Part shown: positions 1 through 9,084 of the stretch, one piece after another
How positions within the stretch are numbered: the first letter of the stretch is position 1
Layout: the number at the start of each line of letters is the position of its first letter
NCBI GenBank assembly: GCA_030611945.1
Contig: JAUWOV010000068.1
Span: forward strand, 1 to 9,325
DNA from: a bacterium
Lineage (GTDB): Bacteria > JAHJDO01
Length of the DNA stretch: 9,325 bases
Reading direction: 5' to 3'
The notes under the pieces: model-generated
Database searches by the model: none
What the model was told of the DNA's origin: nothing
What the model saw: only the letters and a program-made list of their open reading frames with translations
Made by a program: the position numbers and the translations under genes

Positions 1-456
1 ACGCGCAATGGCAACTCGTTGTCGTTCTCCGCCGGAAAGTTCATTCGGTTGATGAGATGTTCTCTGTGTGAGACCAACCGCCTCAATCTGTTGGAGGGCT
101 TTCTCCTTCAAATGACGCTATCCCGCATAGATTAAAGGAAGTTCCGCATTCTCCAAGGCAGTCATTCGGGGAAGCAGATGAAATTGCTGAAAGACAAAAC
201 CAGCTACACGATTTCTTAAAATAGCTGATTCATCATCGGTGAGATCGGTTATTTCTTTTTTCCCTAAATAGTATGAACCTGAATCAGGTTTATCCAGAAA
301 ACCTAATAGATGAAGAAGTGTTGATTTGCCGGAACCTGATGCCCCCATAATGGCAACAAATTCTCCGGGAGTAATCTTCAGGGATACATTGCGTAACGCC
401 TGCACTCCTATTTTGCCGGTTTTGTATGTCTTGTTTATATTCTTTAATTCTATCAC
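1..456 (-). CDS. MacB/LolD-type ABC transporter ATPase, 3'-partial, interrupted by in-frame TAG
   Basis: This is the nucleotide-binding subunit of a MacB/LolD-like ABC exporter, expected at the cytoplasmic face of the inner membrane. The start is GTG at 456; the GTG overlaps the TGA of the adaptor gene by four bases, which indicates translational coupling. Walker A (GASGSGKST) is at residues 38-46 and the Q-loop (VFQQFHLLP) near 88-96. An in-frame TAG at 118-120 follows residue 112 (LPLIYAG). The same frame then continues without a shift for 39 codons, reading as a normal ATPase and including the signature [13 protein letters not shown] up to the window edge. Walker B and the H-loop lie outside. 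The stop therefore interrupts an otherwise well-preserved gene: it is a recent nonsense mutation, a sequence error or, less likely, a read-through codon. The permease subunit should follow to the left. The family call is firm; functionality is uncertain. Confidence 0.88.
118..120 (-). other. In-frame amber stop inside the ABC ATPase
   Basis: On the minus strand this codon reads TAG, between GGA (Gly112) and CGT. The frame before and after it is the same, and the downstream residues ([16 protein letters not shown] and onward) are typical of the helical subdomain leading to the ABC signature. One base change from AAG, CAG, GAG or TGG would produce it. Confidence 0.9.
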
Positions 457-1418
457 TTCTTTTTTCTGCCAAAAGGACTAAAAGGATTACTGCCGCCCCC
501 GATGCCTTTTGATGGCATATACTTCTGGGTCTTAATTATTACTGTATCTTTCGCATTTAATCCTGAGATAATCTCTACATTGTCTTCACCCAAAATCCCA
601 AGCTCAACATAGCGCTTAATAGGTTTTTTATCTTTGCCTTGATTCAAGAGAATGAAATTCCCTTTTTCATCACGATTAATGGCTTCAAGAGGTATGATCA
701 AGATATCATCTTTGTTTGTCTCTATTATATTTACGTTTGCGCTCATGCCTGAGCGAAAAACATCGGGTACTCGTTGGGGAACAATTTCAACTTCATAAAT
801 AGTAACATTATTAACAACCTTGGATTCATAGGATATATGGTCTACTTTTGCGTCTACTTTTACTTGTGGATATGCATCTAAACTGATAATTGCTGTTTGA
901 CCGGGCTTTACTTTCCCGATATCGGTCTCATCAACCTGAGCATTAACAATTAGGCGGTCCGATAATACAATCACAGCATCAGAAGAAGTAACAGTCTGAC
1001 CCGGTTCAACTGCTCTAACAATTACCTCTCCGTCAATAGGAGCTACCAGAGGAGTAGGCTTATACGCATCCTGCCAGTATTTCATGCTTTTTTCGCCCTG
1101 CGCTCTGGCGGCATCTAAAAGAGCGGCTCTTTCCGTTGAGCTCATCCAGGTAAGGGTTTGCCCGATCTTTACTTTTTCACCCTCTTTAACCAAAATCTTT
1201 TCAATTCGTCCGCTGATCGTTGGCTTTAGCTCCAGGCGATTTTGAGGCTGTACTGTACCGGTCGTTGATATGAAATTTTGGATATTGCCATAAGCGGGCG
1301 TTATTACTTTGACAATTTCTTGAGAAACCTTGCCTCTATTTGTCCTTATTGCCACTACGCCGATGATAAGTAATGCTATTAATAAAACAGAATAGACTTT
1401 CCACTTCTTATTTTTCAT
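453..1418 (-). CDS. Periplasmic adaptor (membrane fusion protein) of a MacAB-type exporter, short-hairpin form
   Basis: This inner-membrane-anchored adaptor links an ABC or RND pump to a TolC-type channel. The 321 residues start at ATG 1418, which overlaps the end of the upstream outer-membrane factor gene by 11 bases; GGAGGGA at 1428-1434 lies about 10 bases upstream. A longer in-frame reading to 1484 lies entirely inside the upstream gene and precedes the membrane anchor, so it is rejected. One membrane segment lies at about 9-25. The lipoyl halves are at about 60-90 ([19 protein letters not shown]) and 122-145 ([19 protein letters not shown]). Only about 30 residues lie between them, so the helical hairpin is tiny. 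A beta-barrel follows at about 155-235, then a membrane-proximal domain to about 295. The tail is Gly/Ser- then Lys-rich. Its position directly before a MacB-type ATPase supports a MacA-like role. MacA is about 370 residues, and the missing length is mostly hairpin. Confidence 0.9.
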
Positions 1419-2706
1419 AATCCAACGTCCCTCCTTTTGCCTGGATCCAGTTAGCTTCATTAACCAAAACATTTGCCTGAGCATTCAAAAAAGATTTTTT
1501 TGCATTTACGAGATTATCTTCAATAATTATCCAATCATTAAAAGATGTAAGTCCTGTTGAATACTGCGCATTAGCTATCTTTGCCCGTTCCTCAGCTGCT
1601 TCAAGATATTTGCGTTGCACAGAGACCTTGTCTGCTGCATTCTGAAAATCCGTCCATGTTTCTTCTAATGTAAAAATGATACTATCTCTTCCACTTCTTT
1701 CATCTGCCTGCGCCTTATTCAGTCCTGCTTTTGCTTTAGAAACTTTAGCTATTCTGCTTCCACCTTCAAATATTGGCAAAGATACGCTTACACCAACCGA
1801 CCATGCGTATGTGTCCTCATCCGGCAGCCAATCCGAATTAGTTGTTCCTGTAGTGGCATTGGCGTAAATTTTAGGAAAAAAGTCAGCCTTAGCAGATTTC
1901 AAACTAAATCGAGCCGCTTCTTTCCTGGCAATAAGTTCATTTAAGAAAATCGTGTTATCAGCTAAATATTCAAAGTTTGGTTTTTGTCTATTAATATCTG
2001 TAATTTCGAAATCTCCATTTGCTTTAATAGATGCAAATTTTCCCCGCCCTAATTCTTTTGTTAACTGTCTTTGAGCCAGAGAAACACTCCTCTTCGCCTG
2101 AACGACTTCAAATTCAGCCTGAGCCAGATCAGCCTGAGAAGTCAACAAAGAACCCCTGTGTTCTCTGCCTGCTTCGTAACGCAATTTTACAAGTTTCGCG
2201 TTCTGTTTTCTGCGCAAAGCTATCTCTTCTGTCATAAAAACAAGTTTTTGGGTTCTTAGAAGTTCAGTAAAAGCAGTTCTTAATCTCAATCTTATATTGG
2301 AAGACGTTACTTCATAGCTGTATTGTAAAGCATCCATAGTTTTTGAAGCGGCCTTTGCATCATTAGCTGTTTTAAAGCCGTCAAATAATAATTGTCTTCC
2401 TGTTATACCGTATGAAGAAGCCTCATATTCTTTTTTAGCATCCGTTTCTGATTTTTTGTCGCTTGCATCAGCGCCTATCTGCGGCAGTATAGTGCTCATG
2501 GTAATTGACTTGTCTGCTCTTGATTGTTTTAAATTTTCTTGTGCTGAAATAAGATTAGGATGATTTTTAGCTGCTTCTATTACACAGTCATCCCAAGTTA
2601 ATATTTCCTCAGCATAAACATTATTCAAAAGAAAGCTCGAAAATAATACAATTACAGCTACAGGAATAGGAACAAGTCTGCGAGAAAGATTGCTTATGCT
2701 GTTCAT
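1408..2706 (-). CDS. TolC-family outer-membrane efflux protein (second copy)
   Basis: This is an outer-membrane channel for tripartite export, 432 residues long. It has an N-terminal signal peptide with basic residues (SRR), a hydrophobic core and probable cleavage after VYA near residue 32. The remainder is rich in long Ala/Gln/Lys helices, as expected of OEP repeats, with beta-strand-like segments such as YGITGRQLLFDGF and WSVGVSVSLPIFEGG marking the two half-repeats. No lipobox is present. The ATG at 2706 is three bases from the TAG of the RND gene and in the same frame. AAGGAG about 12 bases upstream, inside the RND gene end, is the best ribosome site, so coupling is likely. It is placed immediately before the MacA-like adaptor, so it most likely serves the ABC exporter, although sharing with the RND pump cannot be excluded. 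The downstream adaptor begins inside its last codons. Confidence 0.92.
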   Translation of the reverse strand: MNSISNLSRRLVPIPVAVIVLFSSFLLNNVYAEEILTWDDCVIEAAKNHPNLISAQENLKQSRADKSITMSTILPQIGADASDKKSETDAKKEYEASSYGITGRQLLFDGFKTANDAKAASKTMDALQYSYEVTSSNIRLRLRTAFTELLRTQKLVFMTEEIALRRKQNAKLVKLRYEAGREHRGSLLTSQADLAQAEFEVVQAKRSVSLAQRQLTKELGRGKFASIKANGDFEITDINRQKPNFEYLADNTIFLNELIARKEAARFSLKSAKADFFPKIYANATTGTTNSDWLPDEDTYAWSVGVSVSLPIFEGGSRIAKVSKAKAGLNKAQADERSGRDSIIFTLEETWTDFQNAADKVSVQRKYLEAAEERAKIANAQYSTGLTSFNDWIIIEDNLVNAKKSFLNAQANVLVNEANWIQAKGGTLDYEK

Positions 2707-2709
2707 CTT

Positions 2710-5700
2710 CTAAATCTTCTCCTTTTTAAAAAGAATTTTCCCACTAAATCTATGTATATACCAAAATGCAACCGGCGTAAATATAAAAGTAAAAAATATT
2801 GATGCCAGCATTCCGCCGATCATAACAATCCCCATAGAGGATTTCATCGGCATAACAGAGCCCAACTGCGGCAATACACCCAAAATAATTGCCAGAGAGG
2901 TCATAATAATCGGACGGAATTTCTGAGAAGCTCCCATCCAAAGGGCCTCAACAACAGCAACTCCCTCATTCATCTTAAGCATAGTATAATCCAAAAGAAG
3001 AATTGAATTATTAACAACAAGTCCTACAATCATAACAATTCCAAGCATAGAGGCAACATTAATGGAACCATCCAAAAAGAACAAGGCAAAGAAAACACCA
3101 ACAAATGAAGTGGCTACCGATAACAAAATAGCAGCAGGATAAAAGAAAGAATTCATCAGAGCGCACAACAACATATAGGTTAAAATAACAGCCAGTAAAA
3201 ACGCTTTCCCTGTTTCATGAGAAGATTCTGCTCCATGTTCAGCCCATTCAACATACCGATACCCATAGCCCTCTTCAAACACGATATCCTTAAATGCCGT
3301 ATCATCCAAAAATCCCATAACATATCCCGATGAAGATTTAGACAAATAACCTTCCAAGCGTATAACCCTGACTTTATCACGGTGCCGTATCATCGGTATT
3401 GATTTACCGTCCTGCAAATCGCCCAATTCAATAACAGGAATCATTCCTTTTTGTGAGATGATATCAATTTGCCTGATATCGTCAAAGTCTTCGATATAAC
3501 GGTCATCTAATTTCACGTTGATATCATATTCTTCACCAGCTTCCTTATAAGTATTGGAATCATCGCCGTAAACAGATGAACGTATAATATCGCCCACAAC
3601 GACATCCTGAAGGCCATATTCAATTAAACGCTGTTGATTAGGTATAAATCTAATCTCTTTCTTAGGCGTTTTATAAGAAGATTTAACAGAACGGAAATAT
3701 CCGCTCTCTTCTATTTTCTGCTTCATCGCTTTTGACAGAGAAATCAACTTTTGGTAATCTTTGCCGTAGACATTTATTGAAATATCTCCTTCCATGCCTC
3801 CGCGCGCTTCACCGCGTTCCAACATAATTTCAGCATCAGGGATTTGAGCCATAAAAGGAATGAGTTCATGAATAATATCGTCATCGCCGCGTTTTCGACG
3901 TGATGAAGGAACAAGATTTACTACAACAGCAGAATTTTCAACACCATCTTTACCAATGTCTGTTAGATAAGATTCCATCTCCGGTATTTTCCTAATACGT
4001 TCCTCGACAATCTTTGTTACCTCAAAAGTACGGTCAATCGTTGAGCCCTGCGGCATTTCAATCTTTACGGTAATCTTATCTTCATCCCATTTAGGCATAA
4101 AAGAATTTGAAACATAAGGCATAATGAATTTCGTTGAAAGAAGCATCACAATAACAAGGACAACCGTTGTCTTTGGAAAACGAAACATAAGCTTAAATGT
4201 TTTTTCGTATTGATCTCTAAGAAAATGCATCATTTTATTTGTCAAGCCTACAAGTGGAGCAAGCGGATTCATAAAACGACCCTTCTTTTCTATCCTCTTA
4301 TTTTTCTTTTTCAAAAAGAGGCTGCAAAGCATCGGGGTCAAACTGAATGAAGCAATAATAGAAAAAATAGTGGCGTAGATAACCGTTAACCCAAACGATT
4401 TAAAAAACTGGCCGATTATACCTCCCATAAAAGCGATTGGGGTAAAAACAACCAGATTAGTTCCTGCAGAAGCAAAAATAGCAGATGCTACTTCTTTAGT
4501 TCCGTTGATTGCCGCTTTAACATGATCATCTCCTTTGCCAAGATGCACCAGGACATTCTCCATGATAACAATGGCATTAGCGATCAGTGTTCCTAAAACA
4601 GTGGCAAAAGCCAAAAGTGTCATCATGTTTATTGTAAACCCAGACGCATCAACTAAAAACAGCGCTGAAATAAGCGAGGTCGGAATAACAATTGAAGCGA
4701 TGAACGTCAAGCTTGCCCGTCCTGTGAAAAAATAAAGTATAATCATGGTTAAAATAATACCCATAAGAATATTAAAATAGGTATCATTTGTTTCACTGAC
4801 GATAAAATCCGTGGTATCGGTTGCGATTTCCAACGACACCCCTTTAGGAAGAAGAGAACGGAATTCATCAAGTCGCTTTTTAACTTCTTTTGATATATCA
4901 ATGGCATTACCATCGGAAACTTTCCTAAGTGAAAGCCCGACTACGTTTTTACCGTTATATCGGGCAATCGTTTCAACTTTTTTAAAACTATCCTCTACGC
5001 GGGCAATTTCATTAAGAGGGAAACTCATACCTTCCCCTGAGACAACAATCATCGAGGATATTTCCTGAAGATTCTTAAATTCACCCAAAAAGCGAAGACT
5101 TAAAGAGTTTTCGCCTTTCTCTAACAGGCCTCCGGGAATATTCTTATTCTTAGCCATAATACTGTTGATAACATTGCGGATCGTAATAAAATGCTGTTTC
5201 ATCAACATTGGATCAAGAATAACGTTAATCTGCCTCTTCTTGCCTCCATATACCTCGACGTTTGCCACACCCTTAAGAGAAGAAAATCTATCCTTCAATT
5301 TTTTATCGGCGAATTCGTACAGATCCCGTCCGTCTAATATGTCGCTCGAAAGCACCAGATCCATAACCGGTTCTATCAGTGGATCGAATTTTTCTATGAT
5401 TGGGTTTTCAACAGCATCAGGCAGGTCATTTATAATAGCATCAACCTTATCTTTAACCTCAATAAATTTGATATTGACATCGGCGCTTAAAAGAAATTCA
5501 ATAGTAACAAACCCGAAATTATCAAATGACTGGCTTTTAAGCCATTTAATCTCGGAAAGCTCGGCTACCGCATCTTCTATCTTATTAACAACCAATGTTT
5601 CTACCTCAAGAGGCGTTGCTCCGGGATATACAGCCTTAACTGTAACAATAGGGAAATTGACCTGCGGCATTGATTCGGTACGTAAATTGAAATAAGAAAC

Positions 5701-5772
5701 AAAGCCAAGTACAACAAAGACCGCAATAAACATAACAGTCGTAACGGGACGTCTAACAAAAAATTCAATCAT
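2710..5772 (-). CDS. RND multidrug efflux permease, HAE-1/AcrB-like, without the canonical proton-relay residues
   Basis: This is an inner-membrane transporter that would carry substrates out through an adaptor and TolC-type channel. The 1020 residues are full length for HAE-1 pumps. The start ATG at 5772 (MIEFFVRRPV, typical of the family) has AAGGAG at 5780-5785 and overlaps the adaptor gene by 8 bases. TM1 is at about 10-28. A first periplasmic pore/docking region spans about 35-330, TM2-6 lie at about 333-487, and TM7 is near 535-552. A second periplasmic region runs to about 855, followed by TM8-12. Family landmarks are present: PGATPLEVE near 50, FRPIIMTSLA at 952-961 and E405. However, TM4 reads GTLIANAIVIMEN, giving Ala398/Asn399 where AcrB has Asp407/Asp408, and TM10 has Asn921 where AcrB has Lys940. 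The Arg971 equivalent (R953) is kept. The pump is therefore intact in length but its energy coupling is unclear. Confidence 0.95.
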   Translation of the reverse strand: MIEFFVRRPVTTVMFIAVFVVLGFVSYFNLRTESMPQVNFPIVTVKAVYPGATPLEVETLVVNKIEDAVAELSEIKWLKSQSFDNFGFVTIEFLLSADVNIKFIEVKDKVDAIINDLPDAVENPIIEKFDPLIEPVMDLVLSSDILDGRDLYEFADKKLKDRFSSLKGVANVEVYGGKKRQINVILDPMLMKQHFITIRNVINSIMAKNKNIPGGLLEKGENSLSLRFLGEFKNLQEISSMIVVSGEGMSFPLNEIARVEDSFKKVETIARYNGKNVVGLSLRKVSDGNAIDISKEVKKRLDEFRSLLPKGVSLEIATDTTDFIVSETNDTYFNILMGIILTMIILYFFTGRASLTFIASIVIPTSLISALFLVDASGFTINMMTLLAFATVLGTLIANAIVIMENVLVHLGKGDDHVKAAINGTKEVASAIFASAGTNLVVFTPIAFMGGIIGQFFKSFGLTVIYATIFSIIASFSLTPMLCSLFLKKKNKRIEKKGRFMNPLAPLVGLTNKMMHFLRDQYEKTFKLMFRFPKTTVVLVIVMLLSTKFIMPYVSNSFMPKWDEDKITVKIEMPQGSTIDRTFEVTKIVEERIRKIPEMESYLTDIGKDGVENSAVVVNLVPSSRRKRGDDDIIHELIPFMAQIPDAEIMLERGEARGGMEGDISINVYGKDYQKLISLSKAMKQKIEESGYFRSVKSSYKTPKKEIRFIPNQQRLIEYGLQDVVVGDIIRSSVYGDDSNTYKEAGEEYDINVKLDDRYIEDFDDIRQIDIISQKGMIPVIELGDLQDGKSIPMIRHRDKVRVIRLEGYLSKSSSGYVMGFLDDTAFKDIVFEEGYGYRYVEWAEHGAESSHETGKAFLLAVILTYMLLCALMNSFFYPAAILLSVATSFVGVFFALFFLDGSINVASMLGIVMIVGLVVNNSILLLDYTMLKMNEGVAVVEALWMGASQKFRPIIMTSLAIILGVLPQLGSVMPMKSSMGIVMIGGMLASIFFTFIFTPVAFWYIHRFSGKILFKKEKI

Positions 5773-6427
5773 TGCGAATCTCCTTAACTTTATCGTTATC
5801 AGAAAGCTGAGTAAATCCCCGCATGACAACATAGTCTCCTGCCTCTAATCCTTCTGCAATCACTGCGCCGTAACCATCACGTCTTTTAATAGCAACGGTT
5901 CTTTTATGTGCGTATCCATCGGCAACGACCCAGAGGATATATTTATCATCTTCTTTATTAATAATAGTATTCGGCACACAAATAACATTGGGAAGGGTAT
6001 CTATATGGACATATACAACAAGCCAATTTCCTACATCAGTCGGTTTCTTAAAAACGGCCTTTACGTAAAACATGCCTGTATCAAGTGAAATACTATTACT
6101 TATTTCAGTAATAGAACCGATAATATTGTTACTGACGGATTCAGCATAAATATCCTGACCTATTGCAAGTTTTTCCTGAGTAGCTTTAGGCACATATCCC
6201 TCAAAGGTTCTGTTATCAACCGACCGTAAAGTCAACTTTTCAAATAGAGGAATATCCTCCGGCAAAACCTTCTTCACAAAAACAGGTTTCCCGTTTTGCT
6301 GCCACTCGGAAAAAGTACTGATAATAGGCTTATTTCGCAGAGAACGCACCTGTTTTTGTTTTGCAATAATTAAAGCAACAAACAACAATAGGCAAATAAA
6401 ATATATCAAAATTTGTTTTTTACTCAC
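5765..6427 (-). CDS. Minimal periplasmic adaptor (membrane fusion protein) apparently lacking lipoyl and hairpin domains
   Basis: The 220-residue protein lies between an outer-membrane factor gene and an RND gene, the usual slot for the adaptor. It starts with GTG at 6427, overlaps the upstream gene by 8 bases, and has GGAGG at 6434-6438 six bases upstream. One membrane anchor lies at about 6-22. Residues 60-145 look like the adaptor beta-barrel (FEGYVPKATQEKLAIGQDIYAE), and 148-220 like the membrane-proximal domain, ending VIAEGLEAGDYVVMRGFTQL, a characteristic adaptor C-terminus. The paired lipoyl motifs and coiled-coil hairpin seen in ordinary 350-400-residue adaptors are not visible. Borrelia BesA, an RND adaptor without the hairpin, is a known precedent for part of this reduction. 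The reading frame is clean, so this looks like a designed short form, not a fragment. Its assignment to the adaptor family rests on context plus the C-terminal half. Confidence 0.8.
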   Translation of the reverse strand: MSKKQILIYFICLLLFVALIIAKQKQVRSLRNKPIISTFSEWQQNGKPVFVKKVLPEDIPLFEKLTLRSVDNRTFEGYVPKATQEKLAIGQDIYAESVSNNIIGSITEISNSISLDTGMFYVKAVFKKPTDVGNWLVVYVHIDTLPNVICVPNTIINKEDDKYILWVVADGYAHKRTVAIKRRDGYGAVIAEGLEAGDYVVMRGFTQLSDNDKVKEIRND

Positions 6428-7745
6428 TGACCGCCTCCGTTACCGCTAATTTTTTAATCTTTGCCAAAGTTACATTTATATTAAACAAGGTAGTCTCCTT
6501 ACCAATTTTTTGGTTTGTCAGACCCAACTCTGCGTCATTGAGATCGTTCACTGAAATCTGACCTGAGCGGAACAAATCCTGGCTCAAATTGAATGCCTCC
6601 TGCGCTAAATGGACTGCTTCCTGATTAGCCTCTAATGTTTTAACATATTCACGATATTCGCTTAAGGCCTTATCCAATTGGAGCAGATAATTTTTACTGT
6701 CTTTTTGATGCATGAGCTCGGCGTTTTGCTTATCTATCTTAGCCTGATGCAATTCTGCGCTTGTTTTACCTCCTGTAAAGATAGGAATATTGACCTTTAA
6801 TCCGGCAACGCCATAATCCTCAAGATTTTCATCGTCTATCTTATAATCATTGCTTATTCCCTGGTGATTCCATGTAACGAAAGCGGAAATCTCCGGGTAA
6901 TATGCCGCCCTTTTAGACTTAACAAGATATTCTTTTTCCTCAATTGCTTTTGCCAATGCTTTTATTGACGGCTGATTATTATATAAAGCTAGAACCAGTT
7001 CATCACGCTCTAACGGCTGATACTCGTCTAAAAACCTTTCTGCCAATTCTATTTTAGCCGCAGGTTTTGCGCCGATAGCAACTTTTAAAGTTTCAATTGC
7101 AGAATAATAATTAGCCTGAGCATTGTTTACAGTGGGCTTGCGCGAAGCAATATTCGCCGAGATTCTAATATTATCATACTTTGAAGCTCTGCCTTGAGCA
7201 GAACGCCGCTCAAGAATATCTTTATTCTCCTGTGACCGCTCATATGAGGCTTGTGCGATTTTCAAAATTCGTTTTGTAAAATATACATTGTAATACGAGA
7301 GTTTTGTCATGTAGATTATTTCCTGTTCGCTTGCCTCTCTATTCCACTGATTGACTTTTATCTTCTCTCGAGCTGCTAAAATAGGGAAGAATGTACGCCC
7401 GAATGTAAGGAGCTTTTGCTCTAAAGTCACTCCTGTATTAAAATCATATTCCTTTTTTGCGGCAGTAGCAGGAATATTCGGATATTCAAAATTCCGAGAC
7501 CAGTTAGATGAAACAGAGATATGCGGAAAAAGTTCGGATTTTTCTGCCTGCATTTGAGAACGACTGCGGTCAACCTCATTATCTTGTATCTGAACATCTT
7601 CGCTTGCTTTTATAGCCATGGTAATGGCATCTTTAAGGCTGATCCTTAAAACTTCCTCATCAGCTAAAACAATAGATAGATTCGCTAAAGATATAAAGCA
7701 TACTATTATTGTACCTATATAACCGTACCGTGATATTTTCTTCAT
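6420..7745 (-). CDS. TolC-family outer-membrane efflux protein (first copy)
   Basis: This is an outer-membrane channel, 441 residues, encoded just before the RND adaptor. The chosen start is ATG 7745, giving a good signal peptide (MKKISRYG followed by a hydrophobic core, cleavage probably after VLA near residue 28). A TTG at 7769 in the same frame lies inside the regulator gene and would add a poorly placed polar tail. Mature protein features fit the OEP family: long amphipathic helices rich in Ala/Gln/Glu, strand segments FNTGVTLEQKLLTFG and VAGLKVNIPIFTGG in the two half-repeats, and a second-half helix pair around SGQISVNDLNDAE. The gap to the regulator stop is 7 bases and AAGGGA sits about 13 bases upstream, so initiation may depend on coupling. 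The pairing with the 220-residue adaptor and RND permease is inferred from gene order. Confidence 0.92.
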   Translation of the reverse strand: MKKISRYGYIGTIIVCFISLANLSIVLADEEVLRISLKDAITMAIKASEDVQIQDNEVDRSRSQMQAEKSELFPHISVSSNWSRNFEYPNIPATAAKKEYDFNTGVTLEQKLLTFGRTFFPILAAREKIKVNQWNREASEQEIIYMTKLSYYNVYFTKRILKIAQASYERSQENKDILERRSAQGRASKYDNIRISANIASRKPTVNNAQANYYSAIETLKVAIGAKPAAKIELAERFLDEYQPLERDELVLALYNNQPSIKALAKAIEEKEYLVKSKRAAYYPEISAFVTWNHQGISNDYKIDDENLEDYGVAGLKVNIPIFTGGKTSAELHQAKIDKQNAELMHQKDSKNYLLQLDKALSEYREYVKTLEANQEAVHLAQEAFNLSQDLFRSGQISVNDLNDAELGLTNQKIGKETTLFNINVTLAKIKKLAVTEAVSE

Positions 7746-7752
7746 TATTCTG

Positions 7753-8418
7753 TCACTTTCCCTTATCAATTTTTACCGCCTTCCAGAGCAGCGCCAGTTG
7801 ACTGCGATACAATCTATTGATTTTATCAAAATCTTCTATTTCAATCGTAAGCGGCACACCTATTAAAACCGACATTAAATTAATAAGAATATCATCCGCC
7901 TTTATTCCTTTTGATATGGTTCCCTTTTTTTGCGCCTTATTGATAAGTTTCAAAAATAAATTCTTTATGGTTACAACATCTACTTTTTCAATGTCATTAT
8001 ATTCCGGAAAAGCAAAATATTTTTCCGCATCACTAAGCGCTTGCCCTTCACCATGTTTAATTCTCTCTGCAGTGAAAAGCGAAATTATTTCATAAAACAA
8101 GAATGGGGGACCTATCTCAATTGCCATAAGGTCAAATGCGTATTCAATCATCTTCAATGGCTCAAGCTGTTGTTCTTTTTTCTGTACTTCCCATGCAATT
8201 TTAAGAAGAGTGAGTCTTTCAAAATATCTGGCAAGCTCTATTTTATTGGAAAAGTAATTATAAAACGTACCTTCCGAGACCTCTACGGCATTACACACTT
8301 CTTTAATTGAAATGTCAGCAAATCGTGTTGATTTCAGACGTTCAAGAAAAGCTCTGGCAAGGGCGATTTTTGTTTTTGCGTATTTCTTCTCACGCAATGA
8401 ATACTTTTCCTCTGCCAT
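7753..8418 (-). CDS. TetR/AcrR-family transcriptional regulator, probable repressor of the export operon
   Basis: This cytoplasmic DNA-binding protein has 221 residues, a typical TetR-family length. The start is ATG 8418, preceded by a near-consensus AAGGAGG at 8424-8430; a TTG at 8475 would lie within the promoter and is rejected. Residues about 12-62 form the three-helix TetR DNA-binding domain, with the helix-turn-helix around 36-57 (ISIKEVCNAVEVSEGTFYNYF) and the family hallmark TFYNYFSNK. The rest is helical and of low conservation, as expected for a ligand-binding and dimerization domain. It is the first gene of the operon, 7 bases before the first outer-membrane factor, an arrangement typical of self-controlled efflux regulators. 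The palindrome between -35 and -10 of its promoter is the obvious candidate operator. The inducer cannot be read from the sequence. Confidence 0.92.
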   Translation of the reverse strand: MAEEKYSLREKKYAKTKIALARAFLERLKSTRFADISIKEVCNAVEVSEGTFYNYFSNKIELARYFERLTLLKIAWEVQKKEQQLEPLKMIEYAFDLMAIEIGPPFLFYEIISLFTAERIKHGEGQALSDAEKYFAFPEYNDIEKVDVVTIKNLFLKLINKAQKKGTISKGIKADDILINLMSVLIGVPLTIEIEDFDKINRLYRSQLALLWKAVKIDKGK

Positions 8419-8423
8419 TTCAA

Positions 8424-8430
8424 CCTCCTT
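8424..8430 (-). promoter_or_regulatory. Shine-Dalgarno site of the TetR-family regulator
   Basis: The minus strand reads AAGGAGG five bases before ATG 8418. It decides the start of the regulator gene. Confidence 0.85.
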
Positions 8431-8446
8431 TTTAAACTTCAGCGTA

Positions 8447-8475
8447 AGTAAAGCACGCTTTAATCTTGGTGTCAA
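8447..8475 (-). promoter_or_regulatory. Sigma70-like promoter of the regulator/export operon
   Basis: On the minus strand a perfect -35 TTGACA (8470-8475) is followed after exactly 17 bases by TTTACT (8447-8452), a 4-of-6 match to the -10 consensus. Transcription would begin near 8440, giving a leader of about 20 bases before the regulator. No other comparable promoter was seen between the genes to the left, which supports one long transcript. Confidence 0.75.
8449..8462. promoter_or_regulatory. Candidate TetR operator (inverted repeat TAAAGC-N2-GCTTTA)
   Basis: Two perfect 6-base arms are separated by two bases, overlapping the -10 hexamer and part of the -35/-10 spacer of the operon promoter. 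A dimer bound here would block RNA polymerase. Assigning it to the adjacent TetR-family protein is an inference from position and symmetry. Confidence 0.6.
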
Positions 8476-8619
8476 GTATATTTTTGTAGTTTACTATAAA
8501 TAGTTTATGATGGGACTAAAGAGAAAGACGTCATCGAAGGATTCGGAAAAAACGTTAGTGGTGATTATGAATAACAAAGTGGATAGTTCAGTAAAGATTA
8601 CTCAGAGCTTAAAATTGTA
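8476..8619. other. Intergenic stretch between the protease and the regulator, with an AT-rich repeat
   Basis: There is no convincing gene here. TAGTTTA occurs twice on the plus strand (8487-8493 and 8501-8507), start to start 14 bases apart. A short palindrome, ACTAT-N2-ATAGT, lies at 8493-8504. Both sit 18 bases or more upstream of the -35, where an activator or a second regulator site could lie. No terminator with a stem and T-run was found after the protease stop, so some read-through into the regulator is possible. Confidence 0.35.
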
Positions 8620-9084
8620 TTACTTGGACTTTCTTTTTTCCAGGGTTAATTCACCTTTTTCAGCATCTATCTTAAAAACAAAATTATTCAAAAAAGACAT
8701 GCCTAGCAGTCCATCAGATTCACCCGATATCTCTCTGTCAAGGATAATAACTCTTACATTATAAGCTTTTACTTTGCCGACTTTGATTTCTTTAATATTA
8801 ACTGCTCTGCCTTTCACTTTCTGTCCATTTGCCAATTCACACAGAACTTTTTTGCCTTTGTTCTTTTTTATCTTCAGCTTTTTGGCTATTCTTGCGGATA
8901 TTTGTGTATGAGTACACCCTGTATCCAGAACCAGTTGTGTTTTTACTTTCTTATTTAGAACAGCATTGGCAAACAGGGTATTGCCTATTTTAGTAAGTTT
9001 TATGACCTTTCTGCCGCCTGGTATCTTAACTACTGTTGCAACAAGCTTTCCTGTAGTTGTAATTAGTTTGCCCGTTGTCTGCAA
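8620..9084 (-). CDS. Retropepsin-like (clan AA) aspartic protease, possibly a lipoprotein
   Basis: This is a putative single-domain aspartic protease that would work as a dimer. Counting from the first usable codon, TTG 9084 (154 residues), the catalytic motif LVLDTGCTHTQIS has D54-T55-G56. The second family landmark, the hydrophobic-hydrophobic-Gly stretch before a terminal strand, is SDGLLGMSFLNNF near 122-134, followed by FKIDAEKGELTLEKR, as in many bacterial retropepsin-like proteins. The N-terminus carries short TTGKL repeats (3-7 and 10-14). The frame stays open up to 9264, and the extra residues look coding: a hydrophobic run ends in a lipobox, LNGC (Cys codon 9145-9147), then ALLKLPGQ. 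If that is the real N-terminus, the mature lipoprotein has about 175 residues. No ATG, GTG or TTG exists upstream of the lipobox in this frame, so the start is unresolved. No Shine-Dalgarno precedes TTG 9084. Substrate and physiological role are unknown. Confidence 0.75.
   Translation of the reverse strand: MQTTGKLITTTGKLVATVVKIPGGRKVIKLTKIGNTLFANAVLNKKVKTQLVLDTGCTHTQISARIAKKLKIKKNKGKKVLCELANGQKVKGRAVNIKEIKVGKVKAYNVRVIILDREISGESDGLLGMSFLNNFVFKIDAEKGELTLEKRKSK

Follow-up and report, generated by a model that had tools for sequence, protein, structure and literature searches.

An ancient, conserved subfamily of AcrB-type RND proteins without the canonical proton-relay residues, in its own predicted tripartite operon

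Comparative analysis identifies the RND protein encoded in the window (the whole analysed stretch of 9,325 nucleotides) as a full-length AcrB-type pump of an ancient subfamily from which the protonatable aspartates of transmembrane segment 4 (TM4) have been lost with no substitute in the membrane core, under purifying selection and within a self-contained TetR-OMF-adaptor-RND cassette. A bolder reading, to which we assign a probability of roughly 0.55, is that an ancient AcrB-type branch present in several bacterial groups would export without any proton relay, on another ion or as a substrate-gated conduit, and that one subclade would join pump to outer-membrane factor (OMF) by a minimal adaptor with neither lipoyl domain nor hairpin. 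RND pumps are regarded as antiporters of protons, and it is the TM4 acidic pair that normally lets protons drive them.

The pump gene (2710..5772, on the reverse strand, as are all genes and codons of the window given below) encodes 1020 residues from its ATG. The product matches Pfam ACR_tran (PF00873) over its whole length (E 1e-209; 699 bits vs a cut-off of 28, residues 1-1007), above the gathering score, and falls under the curated cut-offs of the NCBIfam RND permease subfamilies NF033617, NF000282, TIGR00915 and TIGR00914 (best 637.7 vs 1250). Its AF2 monomer model (pLDDT 85.7) has the AcrB fold, with a TM-score of ~0.9 to AcrD, AcrB and MdtF. Two independent alignments place Ala398 (codon 4579-4581) and Asn399 (4576-4578) on AcrB D407 and D408, and Asn921 and Asn922 (3007..3012, TM10) on K940 and N941, exactly as an earlier note had read the replaced TM4 aspartates at 4576-4581 and the N921-N922 pair. 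Both marks of an AcrB-like antiporter, an acid at TM4 position 407 or 408 and the TM10 lysine, are thereby missing: no clade row has the acid, and Asn921 stands where the lysine would be. Glu405 (4558..4560; AcrB E414, a position with E or D in every RND of the comparison) and Arg953 (AcrB R973) had been described as kept, and they are, but the relay-associated R971 is replaced by Lys951 (2920..2922), an R-to-K change typical of the subclade (K in 26 of 28 clade rows, R in 22 of 22 outgroup rows). The window pump thus resembles HAE1 pumps of the AcrB/AcrD/MdtB type in its full-length ACR_tran domain, its fold and its operon with adaptor, OMF and TetR genes, and differs from them in the absence of both TM4 aspartates and the TM10 lysine and in this Arg-to-Lys replacement. 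Substituting the relay residues of AcrB abolishes extrusion (PMC8277102). Searches of the open-licence literature yielded no account of an HAE1 pump without the relay, which is not proof of absence.

A protein search using one genome per species finds 12 orthologues in Omnitrophota (55-75% identity) and a further one (39%) in a Rickettsiales metagenome-assembled genome (MAG), all without an acid at either TM4 position. Carriers of the window subclade number 30 of 384 Omnitrophota genomes, plus the Rickettsiales MAG. TM4 reads A/S-N in every subclade row examined and TM10 reads N-N in all rows covering it except for one N-D; the other relay-less rows have A/T/S-N in TM4. Because every clade member examined is without the acid, chance does not account for the pattern. 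No subclade member examined keeps D-D, so a change confined to a single genome is ruled out. Close RND pairs give dN/dS values of 0.06-0.09 (0.10-0.20 for the adaptor), reading frames are open in nearly all carriers (two matches have one stop each), and the operon is conserved, all of which bears out the view that this full-length gene is not decaying. TM4 is still among the most conserved segments by region-by-region ratios, a rough indication only since the groups differ in depth. Among 385 genomes sampled from the whole domain, 15 match a DNA pattern written for the TM4 motif without the relay (0 for the reversed control), and 175 match the aspartate version of the pattern.

In a quick tree of 88 RNDs, built with the TM4 and TM10 columns removed and with SH-aLRT support instead of bootstrap, 40 relay-less rows including the window form one clade (SH-aLRT 100), as proposed when the protein was first suggested to represent a distinct RND subfamily. 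This clade comprises the window subclade and lineages with T-N or A-N in other families, and it spans many families. Relay loss is, on this evidence from sequence and phylogeny, an old and inherited feature, conserved across bacterial groups. Four other relay-less rows (V-S-N) are placed elsewhere in the tree, and a single joint origin of all relay-less RNDs is rejected (p-AU 8e-98); a second relay-less lineage, as judged from this topology, arose separately. Members of the second lineage are found at L201:4740-7859, at L205:6556-9669 and in L120. The L201 and L205 adaptors have no hairpin and keep the lipoyl domain. Adjoining the relay-less operon in L201 is a further RND gene (11061-14120), apparently split in two frames and accompanied by an adaptor and an OMF gene separate from those of the relay-less operon.

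Comparison with the D-N/N-N pumps (e.g. L014, L116, L118, L121) shows which residue matters. These pumps also have N at D408 and N-N in TM10, but they keep D407 as their only TM4 acid, where the window subclade has A or S and the other relay-less lineages T, A or S. Loss of both acids had been singled out as the uncommon part, with Asn at the lysine site known from other pumps. The Asn at K940 does occur in the D-N/N-N group, but so does D408N; since these pumps are already without D408 and K940, the relay-less clade is distinguished from them by having lost D407 as well. A precedent for a natural RND protein without TM4/TM10 relay residues is mycobacterial MmpL7 (Ala287/Ala288), which transports lipid by a coupling that has not been identified (PMC8427324). 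MmpL7 differs from the window pump in belonging to the MmpL branch and in having Pro-Tyr in TM10. We know of no description of an OMF-adaptor operon like the window cassette for MmpL7.

The other cassette genes are a TetR-type regulator (7753..8475; Pfam TetR_N) and a TolC-like outer-membrane factor, OMF1 (6420..7769; Pfam OEP), both conserved in orthologous loci, and a short periplasmic adaptor of 220 residues (5765..6427). Orthologous loci long enough to judge have the TetR, OMF, short adaptor and RND genes in common and no other gene consistently, so that adaptor and OMF accompany the pump in one operon, as in tripartite systems. The adaptor consists of a TM anchor and the membrane-proximal and beta-barrel domains only, matching the NCBIfam model RND_mfp at profile positions 164-321 alone; alignments across the window subclade find both the lipoyl and the alpha-hairpin domains absent. 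Its AF2 model (pLDDT 87.5) has BesA as the best PDB match. BesA, the adaptor of the Borrelia BesABC system, encoded in the besCAB operon, is likewise without an alpha-hairpin (PMC3807786), but it keeps the lipoyl domain that the window adaptor is missing. The other relay-less lineages have OMF-adaptor-RND operons of their own, most with a TetR gene, and full-length adaptors with lipoyl and alpha-hairpin domains. The Rickettsiales locus (L045:5625-11033) encodes an OMF, a 196-residue short adaptor and a relay-less RND that is the only PF00873 match in the 0.8 Mb MAG. Upstream in the same locus, the frame at 5625-6089 was read by eye as a putative winged-helix regulator.

What would drive such a pump? 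Taken as a whole, the evidence gives about an even chance to a conserved RND variant that is uncoupled from the canonical proton relay and either serves as a gated conduit or draws on another ion for its driving force. The protein would still trimerise, and substrate would move from the periplasm to the OMF without the canonical TM4 relay. The likeliest mechanism, held tentatively, is a conduit under TetR control and gated by its substrate, with weak energisation or none. This is favored because the sole protonatable group of the D-N type pumps is gone and no new group has appeared in the membrane core, where an alignment search found no titratable substitute for the TM4 aspartates. It is favored also because the charges new to the subclade sit where TM2 and TM8 begin on the periplasmic side, close to the hinge between porter domain and membrane: Glu327 at TM2 (4792..4794; E in 28 of 28 clade rows and S, R, A or T in outgroups, although one member, L183, aligns with N in a separate alignment), and Glu853 with Lys856 at TM8 (3205..3216; 28 of 28 and 25 of 28 clade rows). 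Against the overall reading, Asp928 (AcrB E947; D/E) and Glu405, on the cytoplasmic side, could carry protons in some manner, Glu327, Glu853 and Lys856 are titratable on the periplasmic side, and the strong constraint on TM4 would fit an active ion-driven machine equally.

An ion-driven pump of another kind is possible, and almost as likely. A cation such as Na+ might bind at neutral Asn, Ser and Thr residues of the core (N399, N921, N922, S/T398, T395 and backbone), or protons might pass by way of E405, D928 and K951 or of the periplasmic E327, E853 and K856. Such a route would explain why N399, N921 and N922 are almost invariant with no acid to pair with, why TM4 is so constrained, and why E327, E853, K856 and K951 are typical of the subclade. 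However, D-N type pumps have those three asparagines too, so they constitute no new site; the side chain of Ala398 can provide no ligand for an ion; several other relay-less lineages have I, M or N in place of T958; and E405 and D928 occur in ordinary pumps too, and therefore represent no special compensation. The different ion or proton path envisaged in the earlier note keeps a fair, if lesser, chance, but the membrane core shows no new titratable residue.

Considerably less probable is a role as the non-energised partner of a canonical RND in a mixed trimer, as proposed for MdtC in MdtB2C. MdtC tolerates relay mutation better than MdtB (PMC4338810), a precedent for a relay-impaired subunit, but MdtB and MdtC both keep D-D and K in sequence, and the window has no partner. 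No canonical RND partner recurs among the genomes and relay-less operons examined, with the proviso that MAGs can be incomplete, and no tandem second RND gene lies inside any of those operons. In one carrier genome (G071) the relay-less pump is the only PF00873 match, and the other RNDs of three more (G000, G063, G064) are not of one family.

Coupling to a separate motor was also proposed, and the neighboring MacAB transporter, adjacent to the pump and running in the same direction, is a very improbable candidate for it. Two congeners do not have the pump cassette (2647..8629) at the corresponding position (blastn of the window vs L207 and L208). In those genomes (G002, G004) a protease gene adjoins an OMF2-MacA-MacB operon, with ~178 other bases between the parts that match the window. 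Native to the site are OMF2 (1408..2706; ~89-90% DNA identity to the congeners up to base 2646), the MacA-like adaptor (453..1484; outside the conserved cassette by congener and orthologous-locus comparison), the MacB-like ATPase gene (118..456) and, on the other side of the insertion, a clan AA (DTGA) aspartic protease gene (8620..9084). The first residues of OMF2 differ from those of the congeners, having changed along with the insertion. The protease (154 residues) is 90-92% identical in the congeners, which marks the contig as native and the cassette as most likely acquired; gain is favored over loss because the cassette is absent in four congeners and its position in the tree is nested. 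Mis-binning is ruled out, both flanks being ~89-92% identical to congeners. MacAB thus occurs natively where there is no pump, does not adjoin the pump in relatives, and in the window has a MacB frame broken by an in-frame TAG after 112 codons (654-655 residues open in congeners), which argues against MacAB as the motor. That TAG may be a real stop or an assembly error. With no consistent RND partner either, the proposal of coupling to another motor finds no support.

Sequencing error, gene decay or a single-genome substitution, which a 9.3 kb MAG contig with a premature stop in the neighboring MacB might bring to mind, is refuted by identical residues in ~30 genomes with the low dN/dS and open frames described above, leaving it a negligible chance.

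Since relay loss is old, inherited and conserved, the pumps of this family probably have another driving force or serve as gated channels. A conserved relay-less family shows that the RND fold is maintained without the relay, and opens the way to asking what powers transport or stands in for the proton step; in the same way, the reduced adaptor provides a test of which adaptor domains tripartite assembly needs.
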